From NCBI RefSeq assembly GCF_019263705.2, contig NZ_JADQDK010000001.1, positions 3,720,001 through 3,784,000 on the forward strand: DNA of 64,000 nucleotides, read 5' to 3'. This document shows positions 8,821 through 56,615 of this stretch, in pieces; position 1 is the stretch's first letter; each line of letters begins with the position of its first letter. The position numbers and the translations under genes are program-made. Origin of the DNA: Pseudonocardia abyssalis. GTDB lineage: Bacteria; Actinomycetota; Actinomycetes; Mycobacteriales; Pseudonocardiaceae. The notes under the pieces are model-generated. The model made no database searches and was not told the DNA's origin. It saw only the letters and a program-made list of their open reading frames with translations.

Positions 8821-8984
8821 ACAGCGACTCAGGGGCGGAAGAACAGCGACTCGCGGACATCCCCGCGAGTCGCTGATTCTCCGCCCGCGAGTCGCTGTTT
8901 CTCCGCCCGCGAGTCGCTGATTCTCCGCCCGCGAGTCGCTGATTCTCCGCCCGCGGGTCGCTGCTGCGCGCCCCTGAGTCGCTG
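8821..8984. repeat. 22-bp-period opposed array A1
   Basis: Two reverse cores CAGCGACTC (8822, 8844) are followed by forward cores GAGTCGCTG at 8867, 8889, 8911, 8933, 8955 (one change) and 8976. Spacing is exactly 22 bp except for the last step (21). CAGCGACTCGCGG (8844-8856) pairs perfectly with its complement at 8863-8875 around a 6-base loop, which gives a strong hairpin. The array fills the gap between two convergent genes (HtrA and CoA transferase) and may serve as terminator. The same core recurs at 21276-21460. Confidence 0.9.
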
Positions 8985-8985
8985 C

Positions 8986-10128
8986 TCAGTCGGCCAGCCA
9001 GGCCCGGACCTCGGCGTCGTCGGCGCCCAGGGCCGGGGGCGGGCGGCGGTAGGTCGGGGGTGTCGCGGAGTACGTCACGGGGTTGCGGACGCTCGGGACA
9101 CCGCCCGGGCGCACCACCGGGTCGAGGCCGAGGCGGTCGGCGAGGGCGAGTCCCTCGTCGACGGTCTGGATCGGGCCGCACGGCACCCCGACGGCGGACA
9201 GGACGTCGAACCACTCCTGCGCGGACCGGGTGGCCAGGCGCTCCAGCAGCAGTGGCCGCAGCTCCTCGCGGTGGGCGTTGCGGTCGCCCATCGAGCCGAA
9301 GCGCGGGTCGTCGAGCAGTTCGGGCGCTCCGATCGCCTCCGCCAGCTTGCGGAACTGCCCGTCGTTGGCCGCGATGACGATCAGCTCGCCGTCGCCGGTG
9401 GGCAGCGGCTCGTAGGGGAACAGGCTCAGGTGGGCGTTGCCCAGCCGGCGCGGCGTCGCACCGGCGGCGAGCACCGCCGAGGTGTGGTTGACCAGCCCGG
9501 ACAGCGCTGCGGACAGCAGGTTCGTCTGCACGAGCTGGCCCACGCCGGTGGCGTCGCGGTGGCGCAGCGCGGCGAGGATCGCGACGGCCGCGTGCAGCCC
9601 GGTCATGACGTCGAGCGCGGCGACCCCGGCCCGCAGCGGCGGCCCGTCGGCCTCGCCGGTGACGCTCATCAACCCGGAGACGGCCTGGGCGAGCAGGTCG
9701 TAGCCGGGCAGCCCGGAGTCGGGGCCGAACCCGCTGATCGAGGCGTAGACGACGCCGGGGTTCGCGGCGGAGACGGTCGGGTGGTCGAGCCCGAAGCGGG
9801 CCAGCCCGCCGGGCTTGAAGTTCTCGACGAGCACGTCGGCGCGGCCCGCGAGGCGCCGGGCGAGCGCGAGGTCGTCGGCGTCGCGCAGGTCGAGGACGAT
9901 CGAGCGCTTGTTGCGGTTGATCGAGAGGTAGTAGGTGGCCGTGCCGTCGTCGGCGACGGGCGGGGTCCACGTGCGGGTGTCGTCACCCAGCGGCGGGCCC
10001 TCCACCTTGATCACCGTGGCGCCGAGGTCGGCGAGCAGCATCGTGGCGTAGGGCCCGGCGAGGATGCGGGAGAAGTCGGCCACGACCACCCCCGCCAGTG
10101 GTCCGGTGGGGGCGTCGTCGGCGATCAC
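8986..10128 (-). CDS. CaiB/BaiF family III CoA transferase
   Basis: The 380-residue protein carries the family III pattern: VADFSRILAGPYATMLLADLGATVIKVE, then DDTRTW, RNKRSIVLDL, ADVLVENFKPG, and GYDLLAQAVSGLMSVTG. The catalytic Asp expected in family III enzymes fits the A-LDVMTGLHA segment. These enzymes move CoA between carboxylic acids, but the substrate cannot be read here. The GTG start at 10128 overlaps the stop of the ECF sigma-factor gene by 4 bp, so it is the last gene of the DUF998-DGPF-ECF42 operon, an unusual companion. Confidence 0.88.
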   Translation of the reverse strand: MIADDAPTGPLAGVVVADFSRILAGPYATMLLADLGATVIKVEGPPLGDDTRTWTPPVADDGTATYYLSINRNKRSIVLDLRDADDLALARRLAGRADVLVENFKPGGLARFGLDHPTVSAANPGVVYASISGFGPDSGLPGYDLLAQAVSGLMSVTGEADGPPLRAGVAALDVMTGLHAAVAILAALRHRDATGVGQLVQTNLLSAALSGLVNHTSAVLAAGATPRRLGNAHLSLFPYEPLPTGDGELIVIAANDGQFRKLAEAIGAPELLDDPRFGSMGDRNAHREELRPLLLERLATRSAQEWFDVLSAVGVPCGPIQTVDEGLALADRLGLDPVVRPGGVPSVRNPVTYSATPPTYRRPPPALGADDAEVRAWLAD

Positions 10129-11399
10129 CGGCCCATTGGATCAGCCGCGGCGCGCGCCTGCTCGGCCCGCTCGGCGAACAGCGCGCGCTCCGGCCCGTTC
10201 CGGGTCAGCGCCGCCGCCTCGTCGAAGCTCAGCGCCGCCACCGCGTGCCGCCCGGCCATCGCCAGCAGCTCGCCCCGGACGGCCGGGAGCTGCGGGTAGC
10301 CGGCCAGCGCCACCGCGTCGACCGCGTCGAGCAGGGCGAGCCCGGTCCCGGGGCCGACGGCGTGCCCGTGCGCCATCGCCCGGTTGAGCGCGACGACCGG
10401 TGACGGCCACGCCGTGGCGAGCACGTCGTAGAGACCGGCGATCCGCGCCCAGTCGGTGTCGGCGGCGGTCGGCGCGGTCGCGTGGCAGGCCGCGATCGCC
10501 GCCTGCAGCGTGTACGGGCCGACCGTGCCACCGCCCGCGTCCCGGGCCCGGACGAGCGCGGCGAGGCCGCGCCGGACCAGCAGCCGGTCCCAGCGGCGCC
10601 GGTCCTGGTGCTGCAGCAGGACCGGGCGCCCGGTCGCGTCGTGACGGGCCGCAGCGCGGGACTGGGTGAGCTCCAGCAGCGCCGCCAGCCCGTGCGCCTC
10701 GGGGTGGTCCGGCACCGACGCCGCCGTCAGCCGGGCCAGCCGCAGCGCCTCCGCGCTGAGCTCGGGGCGCATCCAGTCGTCGCCCGCGGTGGCGCTGTAG
10801 CCGTCGTTGAACACCAGGTAGATCACCTCGAGGACGCTCGCGAGCCGCTCGGCGACGTCGGCGGGCCCCGGCATCTCGAAACGGATCCCCTTGTCCCGCA
10901 ACGCCTTCTTCGCCCGGGAGATCCGCTGACCGGCCACCGGCTCCGGGACGAGGAACGCCCGGGCGATCTCGTCGGTGCGCAGGCCGGTCAGGCAGCGCAG
11001 CGTGAGCGCGACGCGGTACTCGCGGTTGAGGGCGGGGTGGCAGGCGGTGAACAGCAGCCGCAGCAGGTCGTCGCCCACCGGGTCGTCGAGTGCGTCGTCG
11101 ACGGCGTCGCGCTCGTCGAGCGAGGCCGGGGTGGCGCGGCCGATCGTCTCGACGGCCCGGCGGTGCACCGCGGCGCGGCGGAAGCCGTCGACGGCCCGGT
11201 GCTTCGCGGTGGTCATCAGCCAGCCGCCCGGGTTGGGCGGGACGCCGGTGACCGGCCACTGCTCCAGTGCCGCGACCAGCGCGTCCTGGGCGAGCTCCTC
11301 GGCGGTGCCGGCGTCGCCGGTGAGGCGGGCGAGCCCGGCCACGAGACGACCGGACTCGATCCGCCACACCGCCTCGACGGCGGCCCTCCCGGTGCTCAC
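10125..11399 (-). CDS. ECF42-type RNA polymerase sigma factor with C-terminal helical extension
   Basis: The 424-residue protein has sigma region 2 near the N-terminus (GDAGTAEELAQDALVAALEQW) and region 4 in the middle (LRCLTGLRTDEIARAFLVPE), followed by about 220 extra residues of TPR-like helices (VYLVFNDGYSAT, LNRAMAHGHAVGPG). This size and extension mark the ECF42 group, which has no anti-sigma factor and is linked to DGPF/YCII proteins. Such a protein is encoded 3 bp upstream. In this group the C-terminal extension is reported to be needed for activity. Its signal and regulon are not visible here. Confidence 0.88.
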   Translation of the reverse strand: MSTGRAAVEAVWRIESGRLVAGLARLTGDAGTAEELAQDALVAALEQWPVTGVPPNPGGWLMTTAKHRAVDGFRRAAVHRRAVETIGRATPASLDERDAVDDALDDPVGDDLLRLLFTACHPALNREYRVALTLRCLTGLRTDEIARAFLVPEPVAGQRISRAKKALRDKGIRFEMPGPADVAERLASVLEVIYLVFNDGYSATAGDDWMRPELSAEALRLARLTAASVPDHPEAHGLAALLELTQSRAAARHDATGRPVLLQHQDRRRWDRLLVRRGLAALVRARDAGGGTVGPYTLQAAIAACHATAPTAADTDWARIAGLYDVLATAWPSPVVALNRAMAHGHAVGPGTGLALLDAVDAVALAGYPQLPAVRGELLAMAGRHAVAALSFDEAAALTRNGPERALFAERAEQARAAADPMGR

Positions 11400-11402
11400 G
11401 CG

Positions 11403-11765
11403 TCAGTAGTCCTCCGGGCCCATCACCTTCAGCACCCGCGCCTCGCCCTCCCAGCCGGGCCAGAGGTCGTGGTGCAGGGCCATGAACCGGCTGGTCCACT
11501 CCACCGCCTCCGCCTTGGTGCGGGTGTCGTAGACGGCGTAGCTGATCATCTCCTTGGACTCCGCGAACGGGCCGTCGGTGACCTGCAGCCCGGCTCCGGC
11601 GCCGACGGAGACCTTGGCCCCGGCGAGGCTGGGGGCGAGGCCGGCGTTGTCGATCAGGGCACCGGCACGGGTGGCCGCCTCCCCCAGCGCCATGATCCCG
11701 GCCATGAGCTCGGCGGGCGGCGGGGTGGCGGGCTGGACGGCTTCGAGGACGACGAGGTAGCGCAT
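11403..11765 (-). CDS. DGPF/YCII-domain protein, partner of the ECF42 sigma factor
   Basis: This 120-residue YCII-related protein contains the diagnostic TDGPFAESKE segment. The fold begins MRYLVVLEA and ends in a VLKVMG-like strand. DGPF proteins are the conserved genetic partners of ECF42 sigma factors, and here the stop lies 3 bp before the sigma-factor start. Their biochemical role is unsettled. The ATG at 11765 is preceded by GAGGGAA-like sequence. The gene upstream (DUF998) ends 23 bp away on the same strand. Confidence 0.88.
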   Translation of the reverse strand: MRYLVVLEAVQPATPPPAELMAGIMALGEAATRAGALIDNAGLAPSLAGAKVSVGAGAGLQVTDGPFAESKEMISYAVYDTRTKAEAVEWTSRFMALHHDLWPGWEGEARVLKVMGPEDY

Positions 11766-11788
11766 CGGGGTTCCCTCCCGGGGTCGGG

Positions 11789-12490
11789 TCAGCGGCCGTC
11801 GGTGTTCGGCATGACGCGGTAGCGGTGCACGAACACCGCACTGAGCAGGGCGAACACACAGACCACCGCGGCCACGAACACCGGCACGCCCGCGGCTCCG
11901 AGCAGGCCCGACGCCATCCCGAGGAAGCCGACGAGGAACGCCGGGCCGACGGCGCGGCACGCGAGAGCGAGGCGGCGGAAGCCCTCACCGGCGAGCCGGC
12001 GGGCCAGCACGATCACCGCTGCGGCCAGGCACCCGAACCCGATCGCCCCGGCGAGCAGGTGCACCAGCGCGGGCCCGCTGATCCCGGTGGCCTGCGGGAG
12101 GTCGGCCGGGAAGCCGCCCGCCGGGTCGACGCGGAACGCCCCCGCGACGACCAGGCCCACCCCGAACGCCGCGAGCAGACGCGGCGACCAGGTGGCCGCG
12201 GGACCGGAGCCCAGCGCGCGGCGCAGGCCGACCGCGGCCGCGACCACCATCAGGCCGGTGACCACGAAGTTCGTGACCTGGATCCAGCCGGGGCCGCCGA
12301 GGGCGAGCTGGCTCCAGGCGTGCCGGGAGAGGTCGAAGCCCTCCCGGAGCAGCCCCTGGGTCACCGACGCGAGCACGAAGACCGGGCCGGCGATGACGCC
12401 GTAGCCCAGCAGGGACTTGGTGACGCGGTCGGCCGTCAGCTCGTCGGCGGCGGAGGTGGTGCCGCTGCGGGTGGGGATGGTGGCGTTCAT
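11789..12490 (-). CDS. DUF998 family membrane protein
   Basis: The 233-residue protein has six predicted membrane helices after a ~28-residue polar N-terminus (GYGVIAGPVFVLASVTQGL, then a WSQLALGGPGWIQ loop, FVVTGLMVVAAAVGL and so on). The SQLALG-GPGW loop and the RVDPAGGFP loop are typical of DUF998 proteins, whose function is unknown. It is the first gene of the probable operon DUF998, DGPF, ECF42, CoA transferase. DUF998 proteins often accompany DGPF/ECF42 pairs, so it may be a target or sensor. A GGAG ribosome site lies ahead of the ATG. Confidence 0.85.
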   Translation of the reverse strand: MNATIPTRSGTTSAADELTADRVTKSLLGYGVIAGPVFVLASVTQGLLREGFDLSRHAWSQLALGGPGWIQVTNFVVTGLMVVAAAVGLRRALGSGPAATWSPRLLAAFGVGLVVAGAFRVDPAGGFPADLPQATGISGPALVHLLAGAIGFGCLAAAVIVLARRLAGEGFRRLALACRAVGPAFLVGFLGMASGLLGAAGVPVFVAAVVCVFALLSAVFVHRYRVMPNTDGR

Positions 12491-12560
12491 GTCGGTCTCC
12501 GTCCGTCGGGTGCGTGTACCGACTCCACGAACGACGCCCCTCCGCTTTGCAGTCGCCGGA

Positions 12561-14909
12561 TCAGCGTTTCGCGCGGACCGGGTCGAGGCGGCGCAGCAGC
12601 ACCGACGTGAGCACCACCAGCACCACCATGATCGCGACGAGCGCGCCCGCCGCGAGCAGCCACTGCTGCGACGTGTGCTCCCACAACGGGTCGGGATCGG
12701 CGAGCAGCGCGTTCATGTCGACGGTGGACGAGCCCATCGCGAACGCCCACCGCGACGGCACCAGCCAGGCCAGCTGCTCCAGCACCGGACGGTCGTGCAC
12801 CGGGAAGATCCCGCCGCTGACGACGAGCTCCAGCATCAGCACGAGCACCAGCAGCGGCATGCCGCGGTCGGCGTTGTCGATCCACGCGGAGATCGCCAGG
12901 CCCAGCGCCATCGTCACCACCGTGACCCCGACGACCGCGAGCAGCACCTCCGCGATCGGCGACCCGAGCAGCACGGCCTCGTCGGGCAGGTCGCGCCCGA
13001 TCAGTGCGAGCAGCGTGAACACCACGGCCTGCAGCCCGGTGATGACGCCGAGCACCAGCAGCTTCGACGTCAGGTAGGCGCCGAGCGACAACCCGATCGC
13101 CCGCTCCCGGATGAACACCGGTCTCTCCTTGACCAGCTCCCGGATGGCCGCGGCCAACCCGACCAGCGCCCCGCCGACGACCAGCACGAGCAGCAGCTGC
13201 AGCGGTTGGAGGTCGCGGGCGGCGAACGCGGCCGCGACCGACAGCCCCGAGTCGCCGGGGACCAGACGCGCGATCAGCGCGAGGAACAACGGCAGCACGG
13301 CCAGCGAGATCGCGTACTGCTTGTCGGAGGCGATGACGGACAGGTAGCGGCGGCACAGCACGGAGAGCTGCGTGCCGAACCGCTGCTGCGGCGGCGCGAC
13401 CGACGGCGCCGAGCGCGACTCGACCCGCGGCGTGTGCCCGGTGGCCCCGGCGACGTAGCGACGGTGCTGCATCGACTGCCGGAAGCGCATCCCCAGCTGG
13501 TCGCCCGGCACGCGTCCGAGCAGCAGGAACATCTCCGCGAAGTCGGGCTGGCCGAAGTACTCCAGGGCCTCCTGCGGCGGGCCGAAGTAGGCGACGTGGC
13601 CGCCGGGGGCGAGCACGAGCAGGCGGTCGCACTGGTCGAGGTTGGCGACGCTGTGGGTGACGACGACGACCGTGCGCCCGTCGTCGGCGAGCCCGCGCAG
13701 CGTCTGCATCACCGACTTGTCGAGGCCCGGGTCGAGCCCGGACGTCGGCTCGTCGAGGAACAGCAGCGTGGGCTTGGTGAGCAGCTCCAGCGCCACCGAC
13801 GTGCGCTTGCGCTGCCCGCCCGACAGCGTGTCGATCCGCTGCTTCGCCTGGTTGGTCAGCCCCAGCTCGTGCAGCACCTCGGTGATCCGCCGCTCGCGGT
13901 CGGCCCTGGGCACGTCGGCGGGGAAGCGCAGCCGGGCGGCGTAGCGCAGCGCGCGGATCACCGTGAGCTGCGGGTGCAGCACGTCGTCCTGGGGGACGAG
14001 GCCGATGCGGTGGCGCAGCTCGTCGTACTCGGCGTAGAGGTCACGGCCCGCGTAGCGGACCTCGCCGACGTCGGCGGGGCGGCTGCCGGTGAGCGCGCGC
14101 AGCAGCGTCGACTTGCCGGCGCCGCTGGGGCCCACGACGGCGAGCAGGCTCTTGCCGGCCAGCCCGAACCCGACGTTGCTCAGCAGCGTCTTGCCCTTGT
14201 CGGTGACGACGGAGATGTCGCGGACCTCGAACGCGACGTCGCCGGTGTCGACGGCCGCGACGAGTTCGTCGCCCTGCATCTGCAGCAGCGCGTGCCCGAT
14301 GCCGATGACGTCACGCGGCCCGACCTGGGCCCGCTGCACCCGCATGCCGTTGACGAACGTGCCGTTGCCGGTGCCGAGGTCGGTGATCAGCCAGCCCGGG
14401 CCGACGCGACGCAGCTCGGCGTGGTGGCGGGAGACGAGCAGGTCGTCGAGGACGACGTCGTTGTCGGGCAGGCGGCCCACGGTGATCCGCGCGGCCGGGG
14501 CGCCCGCCACGCTGTAGCTCATGGTGGCCCCACCGCCCTGCCGGGCGAGCACGCCGCCCGCCGGGACCGGCGCCGGACCGGGGAGGCGGGTCGGCTCCGG
14601 CGCCCGACGCGCGGGCGCCCCGACCGGCCGGAACTCCAGCGCCGTGACCGTCGGCGGCGACCCGAGGTGCACCACGGTCGGACCGTTGAGCGCCAACGTC
14701 GTGACGCGCCTGCCCTCGGAGTAGGTGCCGTAGCGGGAGTGGTCGGTGAGCGTCCAGCGCCCGTCGGTCAGCTCGACGACGAGGTGCGTGCGCGAGACGT
14801 GCTCGCCGGGCAGGTCGAGGTCGGCCGTGGGCCCCCGCCCGATGACGAACGGCCTCCCGGCCGGCACCTGCACCCGGCGACCCTCCGCCACCAGTTCCAG
14901 TGACTGCAT
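12561..14909 (-). CDS. FHA-domain ABC exporter (Rv1747-like)
   Basis: The single 782-residue chain contains two FHA domains (about 20-75 with VIGRGPTAD and SRTH; about 140-195 with VGRLPDNDV, SRHHAE and GNGTFVNG), an ABC ATPase (Walker A GPSGAGKST, signature LSGGQRKR, Walker B LLFLDEPTSGLD) and a C-terminal ABC-2 permease with six helices. This is the layout of Mycobacterium tuberculosis Rv1747, an exporter linked to cell-envelope lipids and regulated by Ser/Thr kinases through FHA binding. No kinase gene is adjacent. Regulation by phosphorylation is therefore inferred from the family. Confidence 0.92.
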   Translation of the reverse strand: MQSLELVAEGRRVQVPAGRPFVIGRGPTADLDLPGEHVSRTHLVVELTDGRWTLTDHSRYGTYSEGRRVTTLALNGPTVVHLGSPPTVTALEFRPVGAPARRAPEPTRLPGPAPVPAGGVLARQGGGATMSYSVAGAPAARITVGRLPDNDVVLDDLLVSRHHAELRRVGPGWLITDLGTGNGTFVNGMRVQRAQVGPRDVIGIGHALLQMQGDELVAAVDTGDVAFEVRDISVVTDKGKTLLSNVGFGLAGKSLLAVVGPSGAGKSTLLRALTGSRPADVGEVRYAGRDLYAEYDELRHRIGLVPQDDVLHPQLTVIRALRYAARLRFPADVPRADRERRITEVLHELGLTNQAKQRIDTLSGGQRKRTSVALELLTKPTLLFLDEPTSGLDPGLDKSVMQTLRGLADDGRTVVVVTHSVANLDQCDRLLVLAPGGHVAYFGPPQEALEYFGQPDFAEMFLLLGRVPGDQLGMRFRQSMQHRRYVAGATGHTPRVESRSAPSVAPPQQRFGTQLSVLCRRYLSVIASDKQYAISLAVLPLFLALIARLVPGDSGLSVAAAFAARDLQPLQLLLVLVVGGALVGLAAAIRELVKERPVFIRERAIGLSLGAYLTSKLLVLGVITGLQAVVFTLLALIGRDLPDEAVLLGSPIAEVLLAVVGVTVVTMALGLAISAWIDNADRGMPLLVLVLMLELVVSGGIFPVHDRPVLEQLAWLVPSRWAFAMGSSTVDMNALLADPDPLWEHTSQQWLLAAGALVAIMVVLVVLTSVLLRRLDPVRAKR

Positions 14910-14938
14910 CGGTCCCCCTGCGTGTCGTGGGCCGCAGA

Positions 14939-15655
14939 TTAACGCGAACCGGCGACAGGCGGACGCGTCAGTTCGGCCACGGTCCCGGTGGGGTCGCTGA
15001 TCATGGCGTCGTGGCCCGTCGCGAGCTCGCGCCACTCCCATCCCTCGCGCCGCGCGACGGTGTGCGCAGAGGAGATCGCCGGGTAGGGCGGATCGGTGCA
15101 GCAGACGTAGGTGACGGGCAGGCCGGCGCCGAGCGGGGTACCCAGCGGGAACGGCTCGGTGTAGGTGCGCAGCGGGTGCGGGGTGAGGCGGCGGGCCACC
15201 CACGCCTCGTCGTCGGGGTCGCCCAGCCCGAACACCGACGCGGGCGGCGGCGGGTACGCGAGCCCGCCGGCCGCCGCCGCGGTGCGCTGGGCGACCGCCT
15301 CGGGCGGCAGGCCGTCGAAGCCGGGGTGGCCCGGGTCGACGAGCACGCCGTCGAGGATCACCAGGCGCCGCAACCGCTGCCGGGCGCGATCCGCCACCGC
15401 GAGGACCACGAGCGCCCCGAAGCTGTGCCCGACCAGCACGACGTCGCTCAGCTCCTCGCACTCCAGCACGCCGACGACGTCGCGGACCAGCGTCTCCGGA
15501 CCGGTGTCGGCGCTGAGCAGGTGCGCGCGCTCGCCGAAGCCGGTGAGCGTCGGCGTGAACACCTCGTGCCCCTGCTCCCGCAGCAGCCGCGCGACCCGCG
15601 ACCAGCACCACCCGCCGTGACATGCCCCGTGCACGAGGACGAACGTGTCTCCCAC
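14939..15655 (-). CDS. Alpha/beta hydrolase (small esterase type)
   Basis: The 238-residue hydrolase starts GDTFVLVHGACHGGWCW, with the oxyanion HG, and has the nucleophile elbow GHSFGA, a probable acid in the ILDGV/DPGHP region and the base His in ATGHDAMI. The compact size and the HGxxHGGWCW start are those of the plant methylesterase/hydroxynitrile-lyase-like branch and of bacterial salicylate-esterase-like proteins. GTG 15655 is chosen because the fold begins at once; farther upstream starts would add a non-homologous tail. It is divergent from the fused acyl-CoA dehydrogenase with a 30-bp shared promoter gap. Confidence 0.88.
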   Translation of the reverse strand: MGDTFVLVHGACHGGWCWSRVARLLREQGHEVFTPTLTGFGERAHLLSADTGPETLVRDVVGVLECEELSDVVLVGHSFGALVVLAVADRARQRLRRLVILDGVLVDPGHPGFDGLPPEAVAQRTAAAAGGLAYPPPPASVFGLGDPDDEAWVARRLTPHPLRTYTEPFPLGTPLGAGLPVTYVCCTDPPYPAISSAHTVARREGWEWRELATGHDAMISDPTGTVAELTRPPVAGSR

Positions 15656-15685
15656 GGGGCGAGTCTGACGGCTACCGTCGAGTAC

Positions 15686-17818
15686 ATGGCACTGGCGATC
15701 ACCGACGACCACCGGACGCTGGCCGAGGTGGCCCGCTCCGCCCTCTCGGGGCAGCGGGCGGCGGCCCGTGCCCTGCTCGACTCCCCCGACGAGGCACTCC
15801 CCGCGATCTGGAAGGAGCTGGCCGCGCTCGGCTGGCTCGGGCTCGCCGTGCCCGAGGAGTACGGGGGCGAGGGTGCGGGGCTGCCGGAACTGGCCGTCGT
15901 GCTCGAGGAACTGGGGCGGGTCGTCGCGCCCGGGCCGTTCCTGCCGACGGTGCTCGCGTCGGCCGTGCTCGCCGAGGCGGGCACGCCGGAGTTGCGCGCG
16001 TCGCTGCTCCCGGGGCTCGCCGACGGGTCACGGATCGGCGCGGTCGGTCTCGGCGGGTCGGTCACGCACGACGGCACCACGGCCTCCGGCGACGCCGGGC
16101 TGGTGCTGGGCGGCGGGCTCGCCGAGATGTTCCTGCTGGTCGCGGGCGACGACGTCGTGGTCGTCGACGCCGTGACGAGGTCCGTGCCGGACGCCCTGCT
16201 CGACCGCACCCGGCGCGGCGCACTGATCACCCTGGAGAACTCCCCCGTACTCGGCGTGCTCCCCGGTGGCGCCGCGGTGACCCGACGGCTCACCCGGGTC
16301 CTCGCCGCCGCCGAGGCCGCGGGGATCGCCACCGCCTGCCTGGAGACCTCGGTCGCCTACGTCAAGGAGCGCAAGCAGTTCGGGCGCACCGTCGGCACGT
16401 TCCAGGCCGTCAAGCACAAGGCCGCCGACCTCCTCGTCGACGCCGAGATCGCCGTCGCCGCCGCGTGGGACGCCTCGCGCGCCCCCGCCGGCACCCCCGA
16501 CGCCGAGCTCGCCGCCGCGGTGGCCGCCGCCCGCTCGGTGCCCGGTGCCGTCCGCGCCGCGGAGACGATGATCCAGCTGCACGGCGGGGTCGGCTTCACC
16601 TGGGAGCACGACGCCCACCTCTACCTGCGCCGCGCGATCACCCTCGCCGCCGTCGTCGCGCAGACCGGGGACGCGGAGCGCGACGTGGCCGCCCTCGTCC
16701 GCGAGCGCGTCACCCGTGCCCCGGACCTGGACCTCCCGCCCGAGGCCGAGTCCCATCGCGCGGCCGCGCGCGAGTTCGTCGCGTCGATCGAGGGGAAGGA
16801 CGCCGCGGCCCGCCGCGCCGCGCTGGTCCAGGCCGGCTACCTGGTGCCGCACTGGCCGGCTCCGTGGGGCCGCGACGCCTCGGCCACCGAGCAGCTGGTG
16901 ATCGAGCAGGAGTTCCGCGGCGTCGACCTGCCGAGCCTCGGCATCACCGCCTGGAACATCCAGACGATCATGCAGCACGGCACGCCCGAGCAGCACGAAC
17001 GCTGGATCCGCGACGCCCTGCTCGGCGTCACCGAGTGGTGCCAGCTGTTCTCCGAGCCCGGTGCCGGGTCGGACGCCGCGGCGATCTCCACCCGTGGCGT
17101 GCGCGTCGACGGCGGCTGGCGGGTCACCGGGCAGAAGGTGTGGACGACCCGGGCCCACGAGTCCGACTGGGGATTCGCGACCGTGCGCACCGACTCGTCG
17201 GGGGCCAAGCACGCGGGCATCACGATGATGGCGATCGACCTGCGCGCGGAGGGCGTCGACGTCCGGCCGCTGCGCGAGCTGACCGGTGACGCCCTGTTCA
17301 ACGAGGTGTTCCTCGACGACGTGTTCGTCCCGGACGCCGACGTGGTCGGCGAGGTGGGCCAGGGCTGGCGGGTGGCGCGGGCGACGCTGGGCAACGAGCG
17401 TGTCTCGATCGGCGGGGGCGGGGCGGGGACGCTCCCGTTCCGGGCCAAGGACCTGCTGCCGCTGGCCGCCGCGTCGCCCGACCCGCACGTCGCGGAGAAG
17501 GAGGTCGGGGCGCTGATCGCCGAGGACCTCGCGAAGCGCCTGCTCCTGCTGCGTCAGGCGGCGCGGGCGGTCGGCGGGACGGAGCCGGGACCGGAGGGCA
17601 ACCTCAACAAGCTGTTCTCCTCCGAGCACTCCCAGCGCGTCACGAGCCTGGCGGTCCGCCTGGCCGGCACCGCGGCGGTGGCGGGCGGCAACGAGCTGGT
17701 GATGCGGTGCTACCTCTGGGCCCGCTGCATCACGATCGCGGGAGGTACGTCGGAGATCGCGCGCAACCAGGTCGCGGAGCGGCTGCTCGGCCTGCCCCGC
17801 GACCCGCTGGTCAGCTGA
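15686..17818 (+). CDS. Fused double acyl-CoA dehydrogenase, FadE34/ChsE3-like
   Basis: The 710-residue protein contains two acyl-CoA dehydrogenase modules in tandem. The first (1-340) has EEYGGEGAGLPELAVV, VKERKQFGRTVGTFQAVKH and LHGGVGFTWEHD. The second (345-710) has SEPGAGSDAA, VTGQKVWTT and IAGGTSEIARNQVAERLLG. The length equals that of mycobacterial FadE34 (ChsE3), where the fused halves replace an alpha2beta2 pair and act on steroid side-chain CoA thioesters. Only one half is expected to hold a complete FAD and catalytic site. No other sterol genes are visible nearby, so the steroid role is inferred from family only. Confidence 0.88.
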   Translation: MALAITDDHRTLAEVARSALSGQRAAARALLDSPDEALPAIWKELAALGWLGLAVPEEYGGEGAGLPELAVVLEELGRVVAPGPFLPTVLASAVLAEAGTPELRASLLPGLADGSRIGAVGLGGSVTHDGTTASGDAGLVLGGGLAEMFLLVAGDDVVVVDAVTRSVPDALLDRTRRGALITLENSPVLGVLPGGAAVTRRLTRVLAAAEAAGIATACLETSVAYVKERKQFGRTVGTFQAVKHKAADLLVDAEIAVAAAWDASRAPAGTPDAELAAAVAAARSVPGAVRAAETMIQLHGGVGFTWEHDAHLYLRRAITLAAVVAQTGDAERDVAALVRERVTRAPDLDLPPEAESHRAAAREFVASIEGKDAAARRAALVQAGYLVPHWPAPWGRDASATEQLVIEQEFRGVDLPSLGITAWNIQTIMQHGTPEQHERWIRDALLGVTEWCQLFSEPGAGSDAAAISTRGVRVDGGWRVTGQKVWTTRAHESDWGFATVRTDSSGAKHAGITMMAIDLRAEGVDVRPLRELTGDALFNEVFLDDVFVPDADVVGEVGQGWRVARATLGNERVSIGGGGAGTLPFRAKDLLPLAAASPDPHVAEKEVGALIAEDLAKRLLLLRQAARAVGGTEPGPEGNLNKLFSSEHSQRVTSLAVRLAGTAAVAGGNELVMRCYLWARCITIAGGTSEIARNQVAERLLGLPRDPLVS

Positions 17819-17834
17819 CCCGTGCGCGGATGCG

Positions 17835-19007
17835 TCAGCGCAGTGCGTGTTCCTGGTGGGCCTTCTCGATGAGCTCGCGCAGTCCGGTGTCCTCGCGGAC
17901 CTCCTGGCCGTGCTTGTCGTCGGGCAGGTCCTTGATCCGCTGCTCGTCGACGGCGAGCAACTCGTAGTTCTTGGCGCGGGTATCGGCGTCGAGCTCGGCG
18001 TCGACGGCCTCCCTGGCGTGCTTGCGGGCCGCGGAGGACACGCTCTTGGCCTTGCCCGACGCGCTGAACAGCGACGCGACGACGGTGACGGCCAGTACTC
18101 CGATGATGACGACCAGCGAGAGCCCGGTGCTGATCTCGAAGACCGGCAGCGGCTGTCCACCGTTGAGGAACGGCAGGTTGTTCTCGTGCAGCGCGTGCAG
18201 GATCAGCTTCACACCGATGAAGCCGAGGATGATCGCGAGGCCGTAGGACAGGTAGACGAGCCGGTCGAGCAGGCCGTCGATCAGGAAGAACAGCTGGCGC
18301 AGCCCCATCAGCGAGAACGCGGTGGCCGTGAACACGATGTAGGTGTTCTGGGTCAGGCCGAAGATCGCGGGGATGGAGTCGAGCGCGAACAGCAGGTCGG
18401 TGGCGCCGATGGCGACCATCACCAGGAGCATCGGCGTCAGCATGCGCTTGCCGTTCTCGTAGGTGAACATCTTGTCGCCGTCGTAGTGCTCGCTGGTGTG
18501 GAAGAACCGCTTGGCCAGCTTCACCATGAAGTTGTCGGTCTGCTCCTCGTCCTCGTCCTCACGGAGCAGGTTCACCGCGGTGACGATGAGGATCGCGCCG
18601 AAGATGTAGAACACCCAGGCGAAGGAGTTGATCAGCGCCGCGCCCAGGAAGATGAAGCCGGTACGGGCGAGCAGCGAGAACACGATGCCGAACAGCAGCA
18701 CCTTCTGCTGGTCGGCGCGCGGCACCGCGAAGCTCGCCATGATGATCAGGAAGACGAAGAGGTTGTCGACGGACAGCGCCTTCTCGGTCACGTAGCCCGC
18801 GAAGTACTCGGTGCCCATCGTGGCGCCGCCGAACCACCAGACACCGATCCCGAACAGGATCGCGATCCCCACGTAGATCGACGACCAGATCGCGGCCTCG
18901 CGCAGGGTGGGGATGTGCGCCTTGCGCACGTGGAAGACGAAGTCGAACAGCAGCAGGCCGACGATGCCGACGATCGTCAACCCCCACACGAGGGCCGGTA
19001 CGTCCAT
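17835..19007 (-). CDS. TerC family integral membrane protein
   Basis: The 390-residue protein has about nine membrane helices and the TerC pattern: SVDNLFVFLIIMASFAVP, LLFGIVFSLLARTGFIF, GATDLLFALDSIPAIFGLT and FSLMGLRQLFFLIDGLL. The acidic residues within helices (VDN, ALDSIP) are the family's likely metal-binding positions; TerC proteins are tied to tellurite resistance and to metal (Mn) loading of exported proteins. A cytoplasmic, charged ~70-residue tail follows. ATG 19007 has AAGGAAC ahead of it. I looked for a Mn riboswitch in the 5' region and found none. It is divergent from a TetR gene. Confidence 0.9.
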   Translation of the reverse strand: MDVPALVWGLTIVGIVGLLLFDFVFHVRKAHIPTLREAAIWSSIYVGIAILFGIGVWWFGGATMGTEYFAGYVTEKALSVDNLFVFLIIMASFAVPRADQQKVLLFGIVFSLLARTGFIFLGAALINSFAWVFYIFGAILIVTAVNLLREDEDEEQTDNFMVKLAKRFFHTSEHYDGDKMFTYENGKRMLTPMLLVMVAIGATDLLFALDSIPAIFGLTQNTYIVFTATAFSLMGLRQLFFLIDGLLDRLVYLSYGLAIILGFIGVKLILHALHENNLPFLNGGQPLPVFEISTGLSLVVIIGVLAVTVVASLFSASGKAKSVSSAARKHAREAVDAELDADTRAKNYELLAVDEQRIKDLPDDKHGQEVREDTGLRELIEKAHQEHALR

Positions 19008-19104
19008 GGGTGTTCCTTCACGAGATCGGGTCAAGATAGGAAAGGGCAGTGTGTCGTTTCTCTGTAGTCTGACGCACGTGCCCGCCCCGGTGTTCCCCGA
19101 GCGT

Positions 19105-19118
19105 GGAAGATTCCTTCC
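19105..19118. promoter_or_regulatory. Inverted repeat abutting the TetR start codon
   Basis: GGAAG-ATTC-CTTCC is a perfect 5-bp inverted repeat ending one base before the TetR ATG, in the divergent terC/tetR gap. It could be an autoregulatory operator. It also overlaps the ribosome site, so a translational effect is possible. Confidence 0.4.
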
Positions 19119-19736
19119 ATGAGGTCGACCACACGGGCCCCCGGACGCCCCCCGGACCCGGAGCGCGAGGAGGCGATCCTCGATGCCGCGCTGGAGGTAC
19201 TGGCCGAGGTCGGCTACGACCGACTGACGGTCTCGGCCGTGCACAAACGCGCCCACGCCAGCGCGAAGACGGTGTATCGGCGCTGGTCGGGCAAGGAGGA
19301 GCTGATGACGGCGGCGCTGCAGCACGCCGTCACCCGCGCCGGTCACACCCCGGACGAGGTGCCCGACACCGGCACGCTGCGTGGCGACCTGGTCGCCACC
19401 CTGCACCGGCCCAGTGCCGCCCCCACCCGCAACCTCGCCCACGGACTGCTCGCCGTCGCGGCCACCAGTGGGGAGCTCGGTGCGCTCGCCCTGGAACTCC
19501 TGCGTTCCCAGGAGGCCCGCCTGATGAAGGTGATCCTGGCGCGGGCCCGCGAGCGGGGGGAGACCGGTGACGGCCTCGATCCGATGCTCGTCGCCGACGT
19601 CACCCGCGGGATGACCCTGCAGCACCTGCTGCTCACCGACGAGCCGGCCGACGCGGAGTTCGTCGAGACACTGGTCGACCGCGTACTGCTTCCCGTCATC
19701 CGGGCGGAATCTGCCCAGGACACCCCAGGCGGTTAG
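19119..19736 (+). CDS. TetR family regulator
   Basis: The 205-residue protein has the TetR DNA-binding domain at residues 13-60 ([26 protein letters not shown], then [17 protein letters not shown]) and a C-terminal ligand domain like that of AcrR-type regulators (TetR_C_11-like, with the conserved [10 protein letters not shown] segment). It is followed by an acyl-CoA ligase gene after only 11 bp, which suggests co-transcription, and is divergent from terC. The likely targets are its own operon and perhaps terC; the effector may be an acyl-CoA or lipid, by inference from the ligase. Confidence 0.9.
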
Positions 19737-19747
19737 GGTCCCGGACC

Positions 19748-21253: not shown

Positions 21254-21275
21254 CGCACCGGCTCCTCCACCCCGC

Positions 21276-21460
21276 GAGTCGCTGTTTCCCCGCCTGCGAG
21301 TCGCTGTTTCCCCGCCTGCGAGTCGCTGTATCCCCGCCCGCGAGTCGCTGTATCCCCGCCTGCGAGTCGCTGCGTACCGGCACGACTCGCAGGCCGAGCT
21401 ACCGCGACCTGCGGGCGGAGTTCTCGCGACTCGCGGGCGGGAATCCCGCGACTCGCGGGG
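21276..21460. repeat. 22-bp-period opposed array A2
   Basis: Five forward cores GAGTCGCTG start at 21276, 21298, 21320, 21342 and 21364. Four reverse cores of the (C/A)G(A)CTCGCRGG kind then start at about 21382, 21404 (degenerate), 21426 and 21448. Each arm keeps an exact 22-bp step. Linkers in the forward arm read TTTCCCCGCCTGC or close variants. The array fills the gap between two convergent genes and can fold into a long imperfect hairpin. It is the same class as array A1 but with the arms in the other order. Confidence 0.9.
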
Positions 21461-21465
21461 TGGGG

Positions 21466-22302
21466 TCAGCGGGCCGCGGCTCCGTCGAGGACGGGGATCA
21501 GCTGCTCCTCCTCGTAGGCGAGGTGGCGTTCCAGGTCGGTCGCGAGCCGGTCGACCTCCTCGGTCACCCCGGCGCCACCGGCTGCGATCGCCTCCTGCAA
21601 CCGCGCCACGAGCACTGCGATCTGCTCGTGCTCGTACCGCAGCCGGTCGACGACGGGGGCGAGGTCGGGGCGGGTCAGGTCCAGGAACGGGAACATCGCC
21701 GCGTCCTCCCCTCCGTGGTGGTTGCGCAGGCCGGCGCACAGGGTCAGGCAGTTGACGCGGAGCTGCGCCCCCAGCGCCGGGCCCGCGGTGGCCACCTCGC
21801 TGCGGATCAGCGCGAGCTCGCGGCGGAACGCGTCGTGGATCAGCCGTAGGGCCGCGCCGGGCGAGTCGGCGGCCACGTTCGGCGGGCCGGTCCGGACGTT
21901 GCTCAGCGCGACGACGGGCAACACCCGCGTCGTCGCATCCTGGTAGGCGGCCCATCCGGGGTCGGCCCCGGCCGCGCGGGCGAACACGGAGTCGCGCTCG
22001 GCACCGTCGAGGATGGTGGCCTCGGCGGCGTAGGTGAAGACCCCGTCCTCGACGGTGGCGCGGGGGTCGGCACGCAGGTTGTGGAACCACGCCGGGTGGT
22101 GCGGCCCTCCCCCTGCCGACCCGATGACGAGCACGCGCTCGCCGCCGTCGGGGAGGTAGCCGAGCGGGACGGTGTGCAGGGCGCCCGTGCGGGCACCGGT
22201 GGTGGTGAGCAGGAGCAGGCGGGCTCCCTCGAACCCACCGCCGACCTGTCCGCGGTTCGCGCGGAACTCCTCGATGATCGGCGTATTGAAGGCGTTCGAC
22301 AC
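21466..22302 (-). CDS. Deazaflavin (F420)-dependent reductase domain fused to a hemerythrin domain
   Basis: Residues 1-135 match the Ddn-type F420H2-dependent reductase family (ARLLLLTTTGARTGALHTVPLGYL, then HPAWFHNLRADPRATVEDG). Residues 140-278 are a hemerythrin-like four-helix bundle with the His/Glu set for a di-iron site (LIHDAFRREL, NHHGGEDAAMFPFL, RLRYEHEQI, HLAYEEEQLIPVL). F420 enzymes of this family reduce quinones, nitro compounds or oxidised lipids; hemerythrins bind O2 or NO. The fusion suggests O2- or redox-coupled F420H2 oxidation, which is inference. The start is GTG 22302. Confidence 0.88.
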   Translation of the reverse strand: MSNAFNTPIIEEFRANRGQVGGGFEGARLLLLTTTGARTGALHTVPLGYLPDGGERVLVIGSAGGGPHHPAWFHNLRADPRATVEDGVFTYAAEATILDGAERDSVFARAAGADPGWAAYQDATTRVLPVVALSNVRTGPPNVAADSPGAALRLIHDAFRRELALIRSEVATAGPALGAQLRVNCLTLCAGLRNHHGGEDAAMFPFLDLTRPDLAPVVDRLRYEHEQIAVLVARLQEAIAAGGAGVTEEVDRLATDLERHLAYEEEQLIPVLDGAAAR

Positions 22303-26078: not shown

Positions 26079-26186
26079 CGCGAGCCCCTGCACGTGATCA
26101 GTATTCCTGCCGCCCGGCACCACGGCCGTGAAACCCCGCCGTCGGAGACACCCCGACACCGGCGGGAGTGCCACCGCGCCCCGGCG

Positions 26187-26490
26187 GGTCCGCCGCCCCC
26201 ACCCCGGCGAGTTTGCCGCTCCCACCCCGCGAGTTTGCCGCTCCCGCCCGGCGAGTTTGCCGATCCTGCCCGGCGAGTTTGCCGCTCCTGCCCGGCGAGT
26301 TTGCCGCTCCTGCCCGGCGGGTTGTCCGATGGCGTTCGGCGAGTGCCCGACGCCGCCCGGTTGGCGGTGTACGCGAGTGCCCGACGCCACCCGGTTGGCG
26401 GTGTACGCGGATGGCCACGACAACGGGCGCGATCGGCCAACTCGCGAGGCGTGAGCGGCAAACTCGCGAGGCGTGAGCGGCAAACTCGCG
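26187..26490. repeat. 22-bp-period opposed array B1
   Basis: The 442-bp gap 26079-26520 holds this array and no gene. Forward cores GAGTTTGCCG start at 26209, 26231, 26253, 26275 and 26297, with degenerate cores at 26187 and 26319 in step. A separate ~34-bp direct repeat (GCGAGTGCCCGACGCC...) follows near 26335 and 26373. Reverse cores CGGCCAACTC (26434) and CGGCAAACTC (26456, 26478) again step by 22 bp. The array lies after the phosphofructokinase gene and before the MBL operon. Confidence 0.9.
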
Positions 26491-26520
26491 GGGGGGAGGG
26501 GGCGGGGCGGGCGGGGTGCG

Positions 26521-48870: not shown

Positions 48871-49608
48871 GTGACGGTCACGGAGCGGGCCCTCGGCGTG
48901 CTGGCGGCGTTCGACGCCTCGCACACCGTGCTCACCCTGACGGAGATCGGCAGGCGGGCCGGGCTGCCGCTGAGCACCGCGCACCGCCTCGTCGGCGAGC
49001 TGACGCAGTGGGGTGCACTGGAGCGCGGTGCCGACGGGCGGTACCGGATCGGGTTGCGGCTGTGGGAGGTCGGCGCGCTCGCGCCGCGGTCGGTGGGGCT
49101 CCGCGAGGCGGCGATGCCGTTCCTGGCCGACCTGCACGAGGTGACCGGCGAGAACGTCCAGCTCGCCGTACTCGACGGCACCGAGGTCGTCTACGTCGAC
49201 CGGATCTCCGGGCGCGCGGCCGTCAACGTGATCACCCGGGTGGGCGGGCGGCTGCCGCTGCACGCGACGGGGGTCGGGCTGGTGCTCCTCGCGCACGCCC
49301 CGCCCGAGCTGCAGGAACAGGTGCTCGCGGCTCCGCTGCGGCGCTACACCGACCGCACGATCTGCTCCCCCACCGAGCTGCGCCGGGTACTCGCCGACGT
49401 CCGGCGCACCGGGGTGGCGGTGAGCGACGGGCAGATCGAGCTCGTCGCGCTGTCGGTGGCGGCGCCGGTGCGCGGGCCACGCGACGACGTCGTCGCGGCG
49501 CTGTCGGTGGTGGTGCCCGCGGCGACGTCGGACGCCCGGTCCTACGTCCCGGTGGTCCGCGCGGCGGCCCGGGGCGCCTCGCGCTCCCTGGCCGCGTCCG
49601 CCCCCTGA
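48871..49608 (+). CDS. IclR family regulator of the 4-hydroxybenzoate operon
   Basis: The 245-residue regulator has an N-terminal winged helix (LTEIGRRAGLPLSTAHRLVGELTQWGALE) and the IclR effector domain from about 75 (ENVQLAVLDGTEVVYVDRI, RLPLHATGVGLVLLAHA, VSDGQIELVALSVAAPV). Its position divergent to pobA suggests a PobR/PcaU-like role, activating or repressing in response to 4-hydroxybenzoate or protocatechuate. The palindrome at 48846-48860 is the probable site. Array B2 begins 9 bp after its stop. Confidence 0.9.
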   Translation: MTVTERALGVLAAFDASHTVLTLTEIGRRAGLPLSTAHRLVGELTQWGALERGADGRYRIGLRLWEVGALAPRSVGLREAAMPFLADLHEVTGENVQLAVLDGTEVVYVDRISGRAAVNVITRVGGRLPLHATGVGLVLLAHAPPELQEQVLAAPLRRYTDRTICSPTELRRVLADVRRTGVAVSDGQIELVALSVAAPVRGPRDDVVAALSVVVPAATSDARSYVPVVRAAARGASRSLAASAP

Positions 49609-49616
49609 CCCCCGGC

Positions 49617-49717
49617 GAGTTTGCCGACCCCGCCCGGCGAGTTTGCCGACCCCGCCCGGGGTCTTGTCCGGAGGCGGTCCGCGAACGGACATCACACCGG
49701 GCGGCGACGGCAAACTC
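49617..49717. repeat. 22-bp-period opposed array B2
   Basis: Forward cores GAGTTTGCCG start at 49617 and 49639, with the variant GTCTTGTCCG in step at 49661. Reverse cores lie at 49686 (degenerate CGGACATCAC) and 49708 (CGGCAAACTC). Both arms step by exactly 22 bp. The array occupies the gap between the IclR gene and the amidase gene, which run in the same direction. Confidence 0.85.
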
Positions 49718-49763
49718 GCGCGGGGTGTTGCGGGGGACGCGTGATGCGGCAACGATCCCGCCG

Positions 49764-51493: not shown

Positions 51494-51495
51494 CC

Positions 51496-53795: not shown

Positions 53796-53808
53796 GGTCA
53801 CAGAAGCA

Positions 53809-53843: not shown

Positions 53844-53847
53844 CCGG

Positions 53848-54504
53848 TCACGGGGTCCAGGGTCGCTCCACGCGGTCCGCCCAGACGGCCAGCAGCTCCT
53901 CGTCGTGCGACACCGCCAGCACGCCCGTGCCCCGCTCCGCCTCCGCGGAGACGACGCCGACCAGCGCGGCCGTCGTCGACGCGTCGAGCATCGCGGTCAT
54001 CTCGTCGCACACCAGGTAGCGCGGGCGCAGCACCAGGGCCCGGGCCACGCAGGCCCGCTGCAGCTGCCCGTCGCTCACCTCGTGCGGCCGCCGCCCGCGC
54101 AGCTCCGCGGTGAGCCCGACGCGGCCGTGCAGCTCGGACTCCCACTCCGCGTCGCGCCCGCGGCCGGTGGCGAGCAGCGGCTCGGCGACGATCTCGTCCA
54201 GCGTCAGGCGGGGGTCGGCCGAGAGGCGCGGCTGCTGGAACACCACCCCGATCGCCGTCCGCAGCTCGCGCGGGGCCCGGTAGCGCACGCCGCGGGCCCG
54301 CTGCCCGTCGATCGTGACCGACCCGGCCCACGGGGCCATGAGCAGCGCGAGGACCCGCGCGAGCGTCGACTTCCCGCACCCGCTCGCGCCCGCCAGCCCG
54401 ACGACCTCCCCGGGGACGACGGCGATGTCGACGGAGTCGAGCACCCGCACGCCCCGCCGGTACCCCGCGACGACGCCCTCCGCCCGCAGCCCCGCACCCC
54501 CCAC
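53848..54504 (-). CDS. ABC transporter ATPase, second of the nickel/peptide importer (DppF/NikE-like)
   Basis: The 218-residue ATPase has Walker A GASGCGKST, the Q-loop in GVVFQQPRL, signature VSDGQLQRA (one change from LSGGQ), Walker B YLVCDEMTAMLD and a switch His in VSHDEELL. It is shorter than usual because it lacks the C-terminal oligopeptide-binding segment that its partner has. GTG 54504 opens the fold. A GTG at 54606 overlapping the previous stop is in frame, but the 34 added residues would be translated repeat (array B3), so it is less likely. Confidence 0.82.
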   Translation of the reverse strand: MGGAGLRAEGVVAGYRRGVRVLDSVDIAVVPGEVVGLAGASGCGKSTLARVLALLMAPWAGSVTIDGQRARGVRYRAPRELRTAIGVVFQQPRLSADPRLTLDEIVAEPLLATGRGRDAEWESELHGRVGLTAELRGRRPHEVSDGQLQRACVARALVLRPRYLVCDEMTAMLDASTTAALVGVVSAEAERGTGVLAVSHDEELLAVWADRVERPWTP

Positions 54505-54509
54505 CCTGC

Positions 54510-54591
54510 GAGTTTGCCGATCGCGCCCGCTGTCTTGGCCGATCGCGTCCGCGCCGCACCGGCCAACACTCTGGTCGGGATCGGCAAACTC
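54510..54591. repeat. 22-bp-period opposed array B3, inside the ABC operon
   Basis: Forward cores GAGTTTGCCG (54510) and GTCTTGGCCG (54532) face reverse cores CGGCCAACAC (54560) and CGGCAAACTC (54582). Both arms step by 22 bp, and outer and inner cores mirror each other. It fills the space between the two ATPase genes, so it can form a hairpin in the operon mRNA. Confidence 0.88.
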
Positions 54592-54602
54592 GGCGGAGGG
54601 GG

Positions 54603-55568: not shown

Positions 55569-56491
55569 AGCCCCAGCTCCGAGCGGCGGCGCGGCAGGGT
55601 GCGGTCGCGCCACCAGGCCGCGATCCCGGCCACCGCCAGCGCGGACGCCACCAGCAGCAGCGCCGGGAACGTCACGATCCACCAGCTCCCGAGCAGCACC
55701 GCGGCCCGTCCCTCCCCCAGGATGTTGCCGATGCTCGCCAGATGCGGGGGCAGCCCCAGACCCAGGAAGCTCAGCGCGGTCTCGTGCCACACCGCGTGCG
55801 GCAGCAGCAGCACCGTCGACAGGGCGGCCTGCGGCACGATCGCCGGCAACAGGTGCCGGTACAGCACACGCCGGCGCGAGGCACCGCCGGAGATCGCGGC
55901 GTCGACGAACGGCCGGTCGCGCAGCGACAGCACCTCCGAGCGCACGATCCGCGCCACGCTCGTCCAGTGCGTCAGGGCGATCGACAGGACGACGGCGAGC
56001 ACCGAACCGCGGTAGAGCGCGACGATGACGATGCCGAGCAGCAGGTGCGGCACGGCGTTGACGGTGTCGACCACGCGCATCAGCAGCCGGTCCGGCCAGC
56101 CGCCGAGCACTCCGGACACGGCCCCGAAGAGCGCACCGAGCACCGTCGACACGACGGCGCACACCGCCGCGACCAGCAACGACACCTGCAGCCCCGCGAA
56201 GCTGCGCAGCAGCAGGTCGCGGCCCTGGGAGTCGGTGCCGAACGGGTGGGTCCACGACGGCGGCAGCCGGATCGCGGTGTAGTCGACGGTCCGCTGGTCG
56301 AGCCCGCCCAGCCACGGGACGAGCACCGAGGCCAGCGCGAGTGCGACGAGCAACCCCACCCCCGCGACGAGCCGCGCCCGCGCCCGCGCACCCACCGCCC
56401 GCCCACGCGTCGTCCCGGCCCGGACGCGTGCGGCCGACCGCCATCGCGGTCCCGCGGTGTCGACCTTCTCCAGCAGCACCTCAGCGCTCAC
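55565..56491 (-). CDS. ABC transporter permease, DppC/NikC-like
   Basis: The 308-residue permease has an N-terminal helix after a polar head, HPFGTDSQGRDLLLRS (the DppC-type GTDxxGRD motif), five more helices and the cytoplasmic EAA loop (AAISGGASRRRVLYRHLLP). GTG 56491 has GGAGG five bases ahead and fits the family length. It forms the channel with the other permease. Array B4 lies between it and that permease gene. Confidence 0.92.
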   Translation of the reverse strand: MSAEVLLEKVDTAGPRWRSAARVRAGTTRGRAVGARARARLVAGVGLLVALALASVLVPWLGGLDQRTVDYTAIRLPPSWTHPFGTDSQGRDLLLRSFAGLQVSLLVAAVCAVVSTVLGALFGAVSGVLGGWPDRLLMRVVDTVNAVPHLLLGIVIVALYRGSVLAVVLSIALTHWTSVARIVRSEVLSLRDRPFVDAAISGGASRRRVLYRHLLPAIVPQAALSTVLLLPHAVWHETALSFLGLGLPPHLASIGNILGEGRAAVLLGSWWIVTFPALLLVASALAVAGIAAWWRDRTLPRRRSELGL

Positions 56492-56503
56492 ACCGACCTC
56501 CGC

Positions 56504-56615
56504 GAGTGTGCCGACGATGCACGTCGGCTCTGCCGTTCGTGCACGCTGCCCCGTACGCCGACGGCCAAGACGGCGTGCGCCTGCGGCAAACTCGCCGAGT
56601 GGCGGTGGCAAACTC
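56504..56615. repeat. 22-bp-period opposed array B4, inside the ABC operon
   Basis: Forward cores GAGTGTGCCG (56504) and a degenerate GGCTCTGCCG (56526) face reverse cores CGGCCAAGAC (56562), CGGCAAACTC (56584) and TGGCAAACTC (56606). All steps within an arm are 22 bp. It fills the 129-bp gap between the two permease genes and is the second such array in this operon. Confidence 0.8.

Follow-up and report, generated by a model that had tools for sequence, protein, structure and literature searches.

Fixed-step GAGT-headed repeat arrays at gene ends of Pseudonocardia abyssalis and its relatives

Six arrays and their genome-wide family

The window analysed here, 64,000 nucleotides long, covers positions 3720001-3784000 of contig NZ_JADQDK010000001.1 of Pseudonocardia abyssalis, whose genome comprises 6.306 Mb in two contigs. 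Gaps between its genes hold six arrays of short tandem units, each with a GAGT head and a variable tail (Table 1, in window coordinates). A preliminary description of this DNA had proposed six arrays on a shared 22-bp plan, and all six are confirmed. They are members of a family that evolves fast, keeps its phase and occupies the niche of terminators. Two unit types coexist in P. abyssalis, type A consisting of GCGAGTCGC plus a tail and type B of GGCGAGTTTGCCG plus a tail. A forward arm was said to face a reverse arm in every array. This holds for arrays 2-6; array 1 is back-to-back, and many arrays elsewhere in the genome are one-armed by the detectors used, which degenerate second-arm units may escape. 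The last three arrays (4, 5 and 6) are short and contain 3, 3 and 4 GAGT/ACTC sites, respectively.

Table 1. Repeat arrays of the window, their units and their genomic context (strand in brackets)
Array	Position	Unit type	Arrangement	Context
1	8821..8985	A (GCGAGTCGCTG)	back-to-back: reverse units (ACTC at 8827, 8849), then forward units (GAGT at 8867, 8889, 8911, 8933, 8976)	convergent gap, HtrA-like protease (7416-8807, +) versus CoA-transferase III (8986-10128, -)
2	21274..21464	A	five forward units, then reverse arm	convergent gap, AMP-binding enzyme (ends 21253, +) versus F420H2_quin_red/hemerythrin protein (21466-22302, -)
3	26196..26500	B (GGCGAGTTTGCCG)	forward arm from 26207; reverse arm 26424-26489	behind the stop of phosphofructokinase (26521-27879, -)
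4	49609..49741	B	two forward units, inner GTCTTGTCCG-like unit, one reverse unit	immediately behind the stop of an IclR regulator (48871-49608, +); no array at the corresponding site of sister genome G122
5	54499..54602	B	one GAGTTTGCCG and inner GTCTTGGCCG, facing reverse units	gap flanked by two minus-strand genes
6	56500..56617	B	forward unit GAGTGTGCCG facing reverse units (ACTC at 56590, 56612)	immediately behind the stop of a permease gene (56621-57637, -)

The ten genes flanking arrays are all ordinary, with metabolic, regulatory, protease and transport functions. The stated absence of cas genes stands for the ten flanking proteins, the only ones checked, none of which is a Cas protein. 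A CRISPR array was rejected as an identity, since unique spacers are missing, the units are contiguous and their 16-bp tails recur within and between arrays. Rfam returned 0 matches at the gathering score in the window and ARAGORN found nothing there. Two other repeats lie close to arrays. At 26339-26406, within array 3, a 34-bp stretch is directly repeated, its two copies being 97% identical, and interrupts the 22-bp step; three 15-bp repeats (8754-8798) lie within the coding end of the HtrA-like gene.

The arrays are not confined to the window. Throughout the P. abyssalis genome, 340 pairs of GCGAGT with 6-36 bases between them were counted versus 45 for a reversed control, and 291 versus 3 of these are spaced by exactly 22 bp, so that nearly the whole excess falls on a single distance. 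The genome-wide search suggested in the preliminary description thus brings out the 22-bp preference, and the family is intergenic and occurs in relatives. In a 464-kb sample of P. abyssalis (the window and 20 evenly spaced stretches), same-strand GCGAGT pairs number 31 at 22 bp and 21 at 44 bp, and at most 1 at any other distance up to 60 bp. Repeated 9-mers in this sample number 345 at 22 bp versus 77 at 21 bp and 11 at 23 bp; larger peaks at 15 bp (572) and 60 bp (429) are due to other repeats. Period 22 is the highest (481) in the intergenic DNA of a 684-kb sample that was not chosen for arrays, where period 15 reaches 256. The custom gene caller used throughout places 38 of 40 array groups in gaps between genes. 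The arrays are therefore abundant, extragenic and clustered in this genome.

The unit changes in sequence while its length is kept, as had been proposed. Ten sets of arrays contain 343 exact steps versus 19 that deviate within 3 bp, and 1,462 tail differences between neighbouring units. This amounts to about 0.01 length changes per substitution, a figure lowered by the choice of most sets through exact-step patterns; G130 and G146 are less strict (17 exact steps, 6 off). The neutral ratio in bacteria is expected to be several times higher. Hence, something keeps the unit length in these arrays.

The step belongs to the unit family, and a universal 22-bp rule was rejected. The preliminary step of 22 bp applies to P. 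abyssalis, but a 21-bp step was read in G130, G146, G054, G183 and G124, and a 20-bp step with a GNGAGT head in G210 (L235, L293), the sole 20-bp family read. Further genera are rich at 19-21 bp by count alone. Genome G003 carries two families, one stepping by 21 bp (57 of 61 steps) and the other by 22 bp (17 of 21). Among 64 unit triples from this genome, taken by hand from match lengths, 45 are 21+21, 9 are 22+22, 7 are mixed and 3 are other.

Gene ends, folding and the register between arms

Gaps of 40-600 bp in seven sets were sorted by the orientation of the flanking genes. Arrays occupy 58 of 154 convergent, 62 of 572 tandem and 6 of 295 divergent gaps (convergent versus divergent, p 3e-24; tandem versus divergent, p 9e-7). 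Because most of the relatives' stretches had been picked for holding arrays, these rates are inflated and the contrasts alone count; 15 of 80 named loci, which lay outside the family or were odd repeats, had been removed before counting. Ordinary hairpins outside arrays have the same gap-context profile (44/154, 71/572 and 6/295, respectively). An extra hairpin is present in 9 of 58 convergent array gaps versus 35 of 96 array-free ones (odds ratio 0.32, p 0.006). In the unselected 684-kb sample, where array detection was stricter, arrays lie in 5 of 45 convergent, 8 of 205 tandem and 1 of 98 divergent gaps (convergent versus divergent, p 0.012). A separate hairpin occurs there in 0 of 14 array gaps, a number too small for testing.

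The arrays are also oriented. Single-orientation arrays in tandem gaps are sense to the upstream gene in 34 cases and antisense in 12 (p 0.0016), and about half of the sense arms (75 of 147) start no more than 15 nt behind the stop codon. In G003 the median distance from the stop is 8 nt (n=24). A sense bias would suit sites for loading of the Rho factor (rut), that is, C-rich unstructured repeats with even YC steps behind the stop, and the P. abyssalis units are indeed C-rich in the sense strand (C/G 1.30, 1.19), with most single arms unstructured. Rut sites of this kind should be C-rich and G-poor, however, and C/G, which varies between 0.36 and 2.12, is above 1 in only 14 of 40 species or unit families. 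Rho loading is therefore a very improbable explanation.

Folding separates two classes of arrays. All nine two-arm arrays of P. abyssalis fold with z < -3 versus shuffles (median -7.5), and convergent gaps without an array have a median z of -2.3 (n=41). Among one-arm gaps, 6 of 23 fall below z -3, and in some of these six a degenerate second arm is present. According to one explanation the arrays are RNA hairpin terminators and nothing else, the arms pairing in the transcript and the repeats making this pairing tolerant to slippage. Besides the two-arm folds, the hairpins at the same sites in relatives agree with this. The hairpins of two-arm arrays are long and GC-rich, no T-run being called with them, and in this resemble the GC-rich hairpin terminators of actinomycetes described in a Term-seq study of Streptomyces clavuligerus (PMC8269248). 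A scan for T-runs after a stem in 8600-27000, which covers arrays 1-3, called two terminator-like sites, both away from these arrays. Hairpins cannot explain most single arms, because one-arm gaps mostly fail to fold strongly: the GC hairpin of an intrinsic terminator is present in two-arm arrays and absent in most single-arm arrays. Unlike actinomycete hairpin terminators, with which they share gap contexts, the arrays are tandem repeats of fixed step.

Mirroring of the two arms, part of the preliminary description, is significant only in P. abyssalis. Arms there are more alike within an array (0.64) than across arrays (0.43; p 0.005 for nine arrays with types A and B taken together), but mirroring is not significant in G143 (p 0.07), G159 and G172 (5, 5 and 3 arrays). 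Compensatory pairing of arms as a general rule was thus rejected as unsupported outside P. abyssalis. A pure hairpin mechanism is accordingly improbable, and it would not lead one to expect the register described below.

For the register, facing arrays were measured across the centre, between the final forward GNGAGT and the reverse ACTCNC that comes first after it. These distances cluster near 34, 55, 68, 78 and 88 bp. A first set of 33 arrays gave a best period of 10.75 bp, and the same value was obtained for 48 facing arrays pooled after removal of duplicates (scan 6-40 bp, R 0.52, p 2.5e-6); across the whole scan, 0 of 2000 random sets reached the pooled score. With one array per species (19 species) the mean R is 0.56 and the median p 0.002. 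At period 22 the pooled arrays show no significant signal (R 0.12); the register is therefore not merely the repeat carried on through the centre. Facing arrays fetched later fit the predicted phase (n=8, p 0.013). A ninth, from the locus of L142 and already in the first set, was excluded; locus L436 of G192 matches L142 of Pseudonocardia thermophila DSM 43832 in 204 of 204 sampled 60-mers. Since facing arms hold an 11-bp register across the centre, a helical constraint at the level of DNA is suggested. The earlier proposal that selection or copying acts on a period of two helical turns holds as far as unit length is kept, and its two-turn part gains support from this register.

Turnover and the proposed reading as gene-end elements

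Sites of arrays turn over quickly among relatives. Counts for three gaps refer to the loci returned and examined (30 of 40 for HtrA and for phosphofructokinase, 17 of 20 for IclR), with a counter that detects GAGT arrays only. Among 30 genomes of the genus, the HtrA gap holds an array in 3, a hairpin without an array in 23 and neither in 4, and the phosphofructokinase gap holds 5 arrays, 4 hairpins and neither in 21. The 17 IclR loci of relatives include 1 array, 2 hairpins and 14 with neither. The sister genome G122 has a mean protein identity of 86% and 88% in the two regions compared. Its HtrA gap carries an array in the same back-to-back order, with the core GCGAGTCCCCCGTTCC versus GCGAGTCGCTGTTTC in P. 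abyssalis, plus a hairpin. Of 165 gaps common to both genomes, eight were flagged and two of these (3699544, 3716198) were dropped on inspection as they are not arrays; the remaining six comprise four arrays in P. abyssalis only, one in G122 only and one shared. The gap at 3717736 holds an array in P. abyssalis and a plain hairpin in G122. For array 4, the C-termini of the outgroups are too variable to tell a gain in P. abyssalis from a loss in G122.

Two kinds of hairpin were noticed at the same gene ends. The first is a second dispersed family in several relatives, with a GCCAC(T/A/C)TTC core, e.g. AGGAAGGCCACCTTCA...TGAAGGTGGCCTTCCT, found in the HtrA, phosphofructokinase and IclR gaps (L255, L256, L261, L262, L269; G122 at 3717736; L372, L381, L384). 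The second is a single hairpin behind phosphofructokinase in L228 and L248, opening with GTGAGTGGATACG near the stop and carrying the GNGAGT head of the arrays, and is a possible link between hairpins and array units.

Units resemble each other across loci of one genome. Different P. abyssalis arrays have exact runs of up to 44 bp (two units) in common, and unit variants recur across arrays. With types A and B pooled, the mean identity of the 16-bp tails is 10.6 within and 7.3 between arrays. The best tail match averages 13.7 of 16 among all other arrays and 12.9 in the same array, the pool of other arrays being far larger. Tandem slippage at isolated loci was therefore rejected.

The main rival to a function at gene ends is passive spread. 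The arrays would then be selfish repeats dispersed like repetitive extragenic palindromic (REP) elements, copied and duplicated in phase, tolerated at gene ends where they do no harm to promoters, with a functionless step inherited from the founder unit. REP elements are likewise placed at gene ends. REP, BIME and REPIN elements are short, abundant, extragenic, species-specific and clustered in two orientations (PMC3116915, PMC3733652), and the arrays resemble them in these respects. The turnover between P. abyssalis and G122, the long exact runs common to different arrays, the tie of step to unit family with two steps in one genome, and the patchy presence of arrays within one genus all agree with passive spread. 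It does not predict, however, the 34:12 sense bias, the closeness to stop codons, the avoidance of hairpins in convergent gaps or an 11-bp register between arms whose sequences are for the most part not mirrored. Unlike REP and BIME, the arrays keep a strict tandem step of 20-22 bp and their single arms are mostly unfolded, in contrast to a palindromic unit (this concerns folds of whole gaps, not of single units). Nor do they carry the GTAG or CGTC tag of REP elements; they are headed by GAGT, and the 40 consensus sets have no such common tag.

A REP system driven by a RAYT transposase was rejected, since the family (Y1_Tnp, PF01797) has 0 matches in P. abyssalis; it is absent from 16 of 20 array-rich genomes searched, and present in 4 of 20 array-rich and 2 of 20 array-poor ones. 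A plasmid or phage source was rejected as well: array 2 is unmatched in plasmids and phages and array 3 in plasmids. These plasmid and phage records thus gave no sign, at the two arrays, of the known insertion element raised in the preliminary description. The head pattern itself has matches in ten viral stretches. Overall, passive spread accounts for turnover and context but leaves orientation, stop closeness and register without explanation, and we regard it as a serious contender that falls somewhat short of even odds.

We tentatively favour, with a probability of roughly 0.43, the reading that the arrays represent a new type of gene-end (3'-end) element and form a lineage-specific family. 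The GAGT head could be read about once per two helical turns by a putative DNA-binding factor, which would line up along one face of the DNA and halt or insulate transcription leaving the gene. With facing arms, the transcript might in addition fold into a long hairpin able to end it from both sides. New units would presumably spread by block copying between arrays, so that one core could replace another genome-wide while the step fixed by the reader stays. A more specific version, in which a conserved actinobacterial factor reads GAGT every two turns, aligns along one face across both arms and ends or insulates transcription, tolerating almost any tail so that whole site sets are rewritten from one species to the next but the ruler, which is 20, 21 or 22 bp depending on the unit family, remains near-exact, is doubtful as it stands.

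Several results weigh against the gene-end reading. No factor was found. The later-fetched facing arrays consist of seven from G192 and one of G127; taken alone, this set gives p 0.057-0.081 (0.057 for a period of 11 bp) and fits 16.75 bp equally. Omission of genus g21, in which the centres look related, leaves the register at p 0.001, the four 21-step arrays give p 0.063 and back-to-back arrays, duplicates removed, p 0.1 (n=25). Tandem gaps show no avoidance of hairpins (p 0.68). In the unselected sample tandem versus divergent gaps do not differ significantly (p 0.28), and the 0 of 5 convergent array gaps with a separate hairpin correspond to p 0.57. One-arm gaps mostly fold no better than others (median z -1.8, n=14; -0.8, n=9), and a second unit family of G192 mixes 21 and 22 bp beside a 22-step family. 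Finally, the arrays are not essential, because the majority of convergent gaps are array-free and relatives often have neither device (21 of 30 phosphofructokinase and 14 of 17 IclR gaps).

If the gene-end reading is true, transcription units of a large GC-rich actinobacterial group could be closed by arrays that are conserved in spacing and not in sequence. It would also make core replacement testable genome-wide, an orthologous array keeping its place and polarity while its core is exchanged, as at one site so far. Shifting the centre of an array by 5 versus 11 bp offers a ready means to tell a DNA-level from an RNA-level mechanism.

Distribution and unit sequence

Arrays with GAGT heads occur in many Pseudonocardiaceae and a few Nocardioidaceae. 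At least one 22-bp ladder of three GAGT is present in 66 of 200 genomes of the family, chance matches included, and only some of these genomes are rich. Among the matches listed (at least 80 loci) are Pseudonocardia, Amycolatopsis, Actinophytocola, Herbihabitans and Lentzea, and also Mumia, Nocardioides and scattered repeats in unrelated phyla. A class-wide draw of 394 genomes contains 7 with a match, namely P. abyssalis, five of family f29, to which the Mumia sequence of L105 belongs, and one single match in another family.

Tails are mostly distinct between species, although some near relatives have tails in common. In the 22-bp consensus of 40 species or unit families, the GNGAGT seeds predetermine positions 1 and 3-6. 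Beyond these, position 7 is C or T without exception, G or C predominates at position 8, and T accounts for 71% of the weight at position 14. That the GAGT head is an artefact of the search is only partly excluded. Stretches of 40 kb were compared from ten genomes that were either poor in GAGT arrays or untested for them. One, G215, has 22-bp GAGT arrays; the other nine have no comparable arrays of 20-22 bp, although G169 and G155 give small 20-bp signals and G050 contains an 18-bp repeat. Inspection of the HtrA, phosphofructokinase and IclR gaps by eye brought up no strict-step tandem array without GAGT.

Iterons and other phased operator arrays consist of direct repeats at about two helical turns. 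The present arrays differ in being dispersed over many gene-end sites, and their binding protein is putative. Among the matches listed by literature searches, whose coverage left out subscription journals and preprints, no title or abstract opening describes such arrays.

Two arms stand out by their length. A reverse arm of 22 units in Pseudonocardia kunmingensis (L172, 982 onward) is the longest among the named loci. The other, at G192:C9:161091-161492 (L434), is also very long, and its two 22-bp unit types largely alternate as a 44-bp super-repeat.

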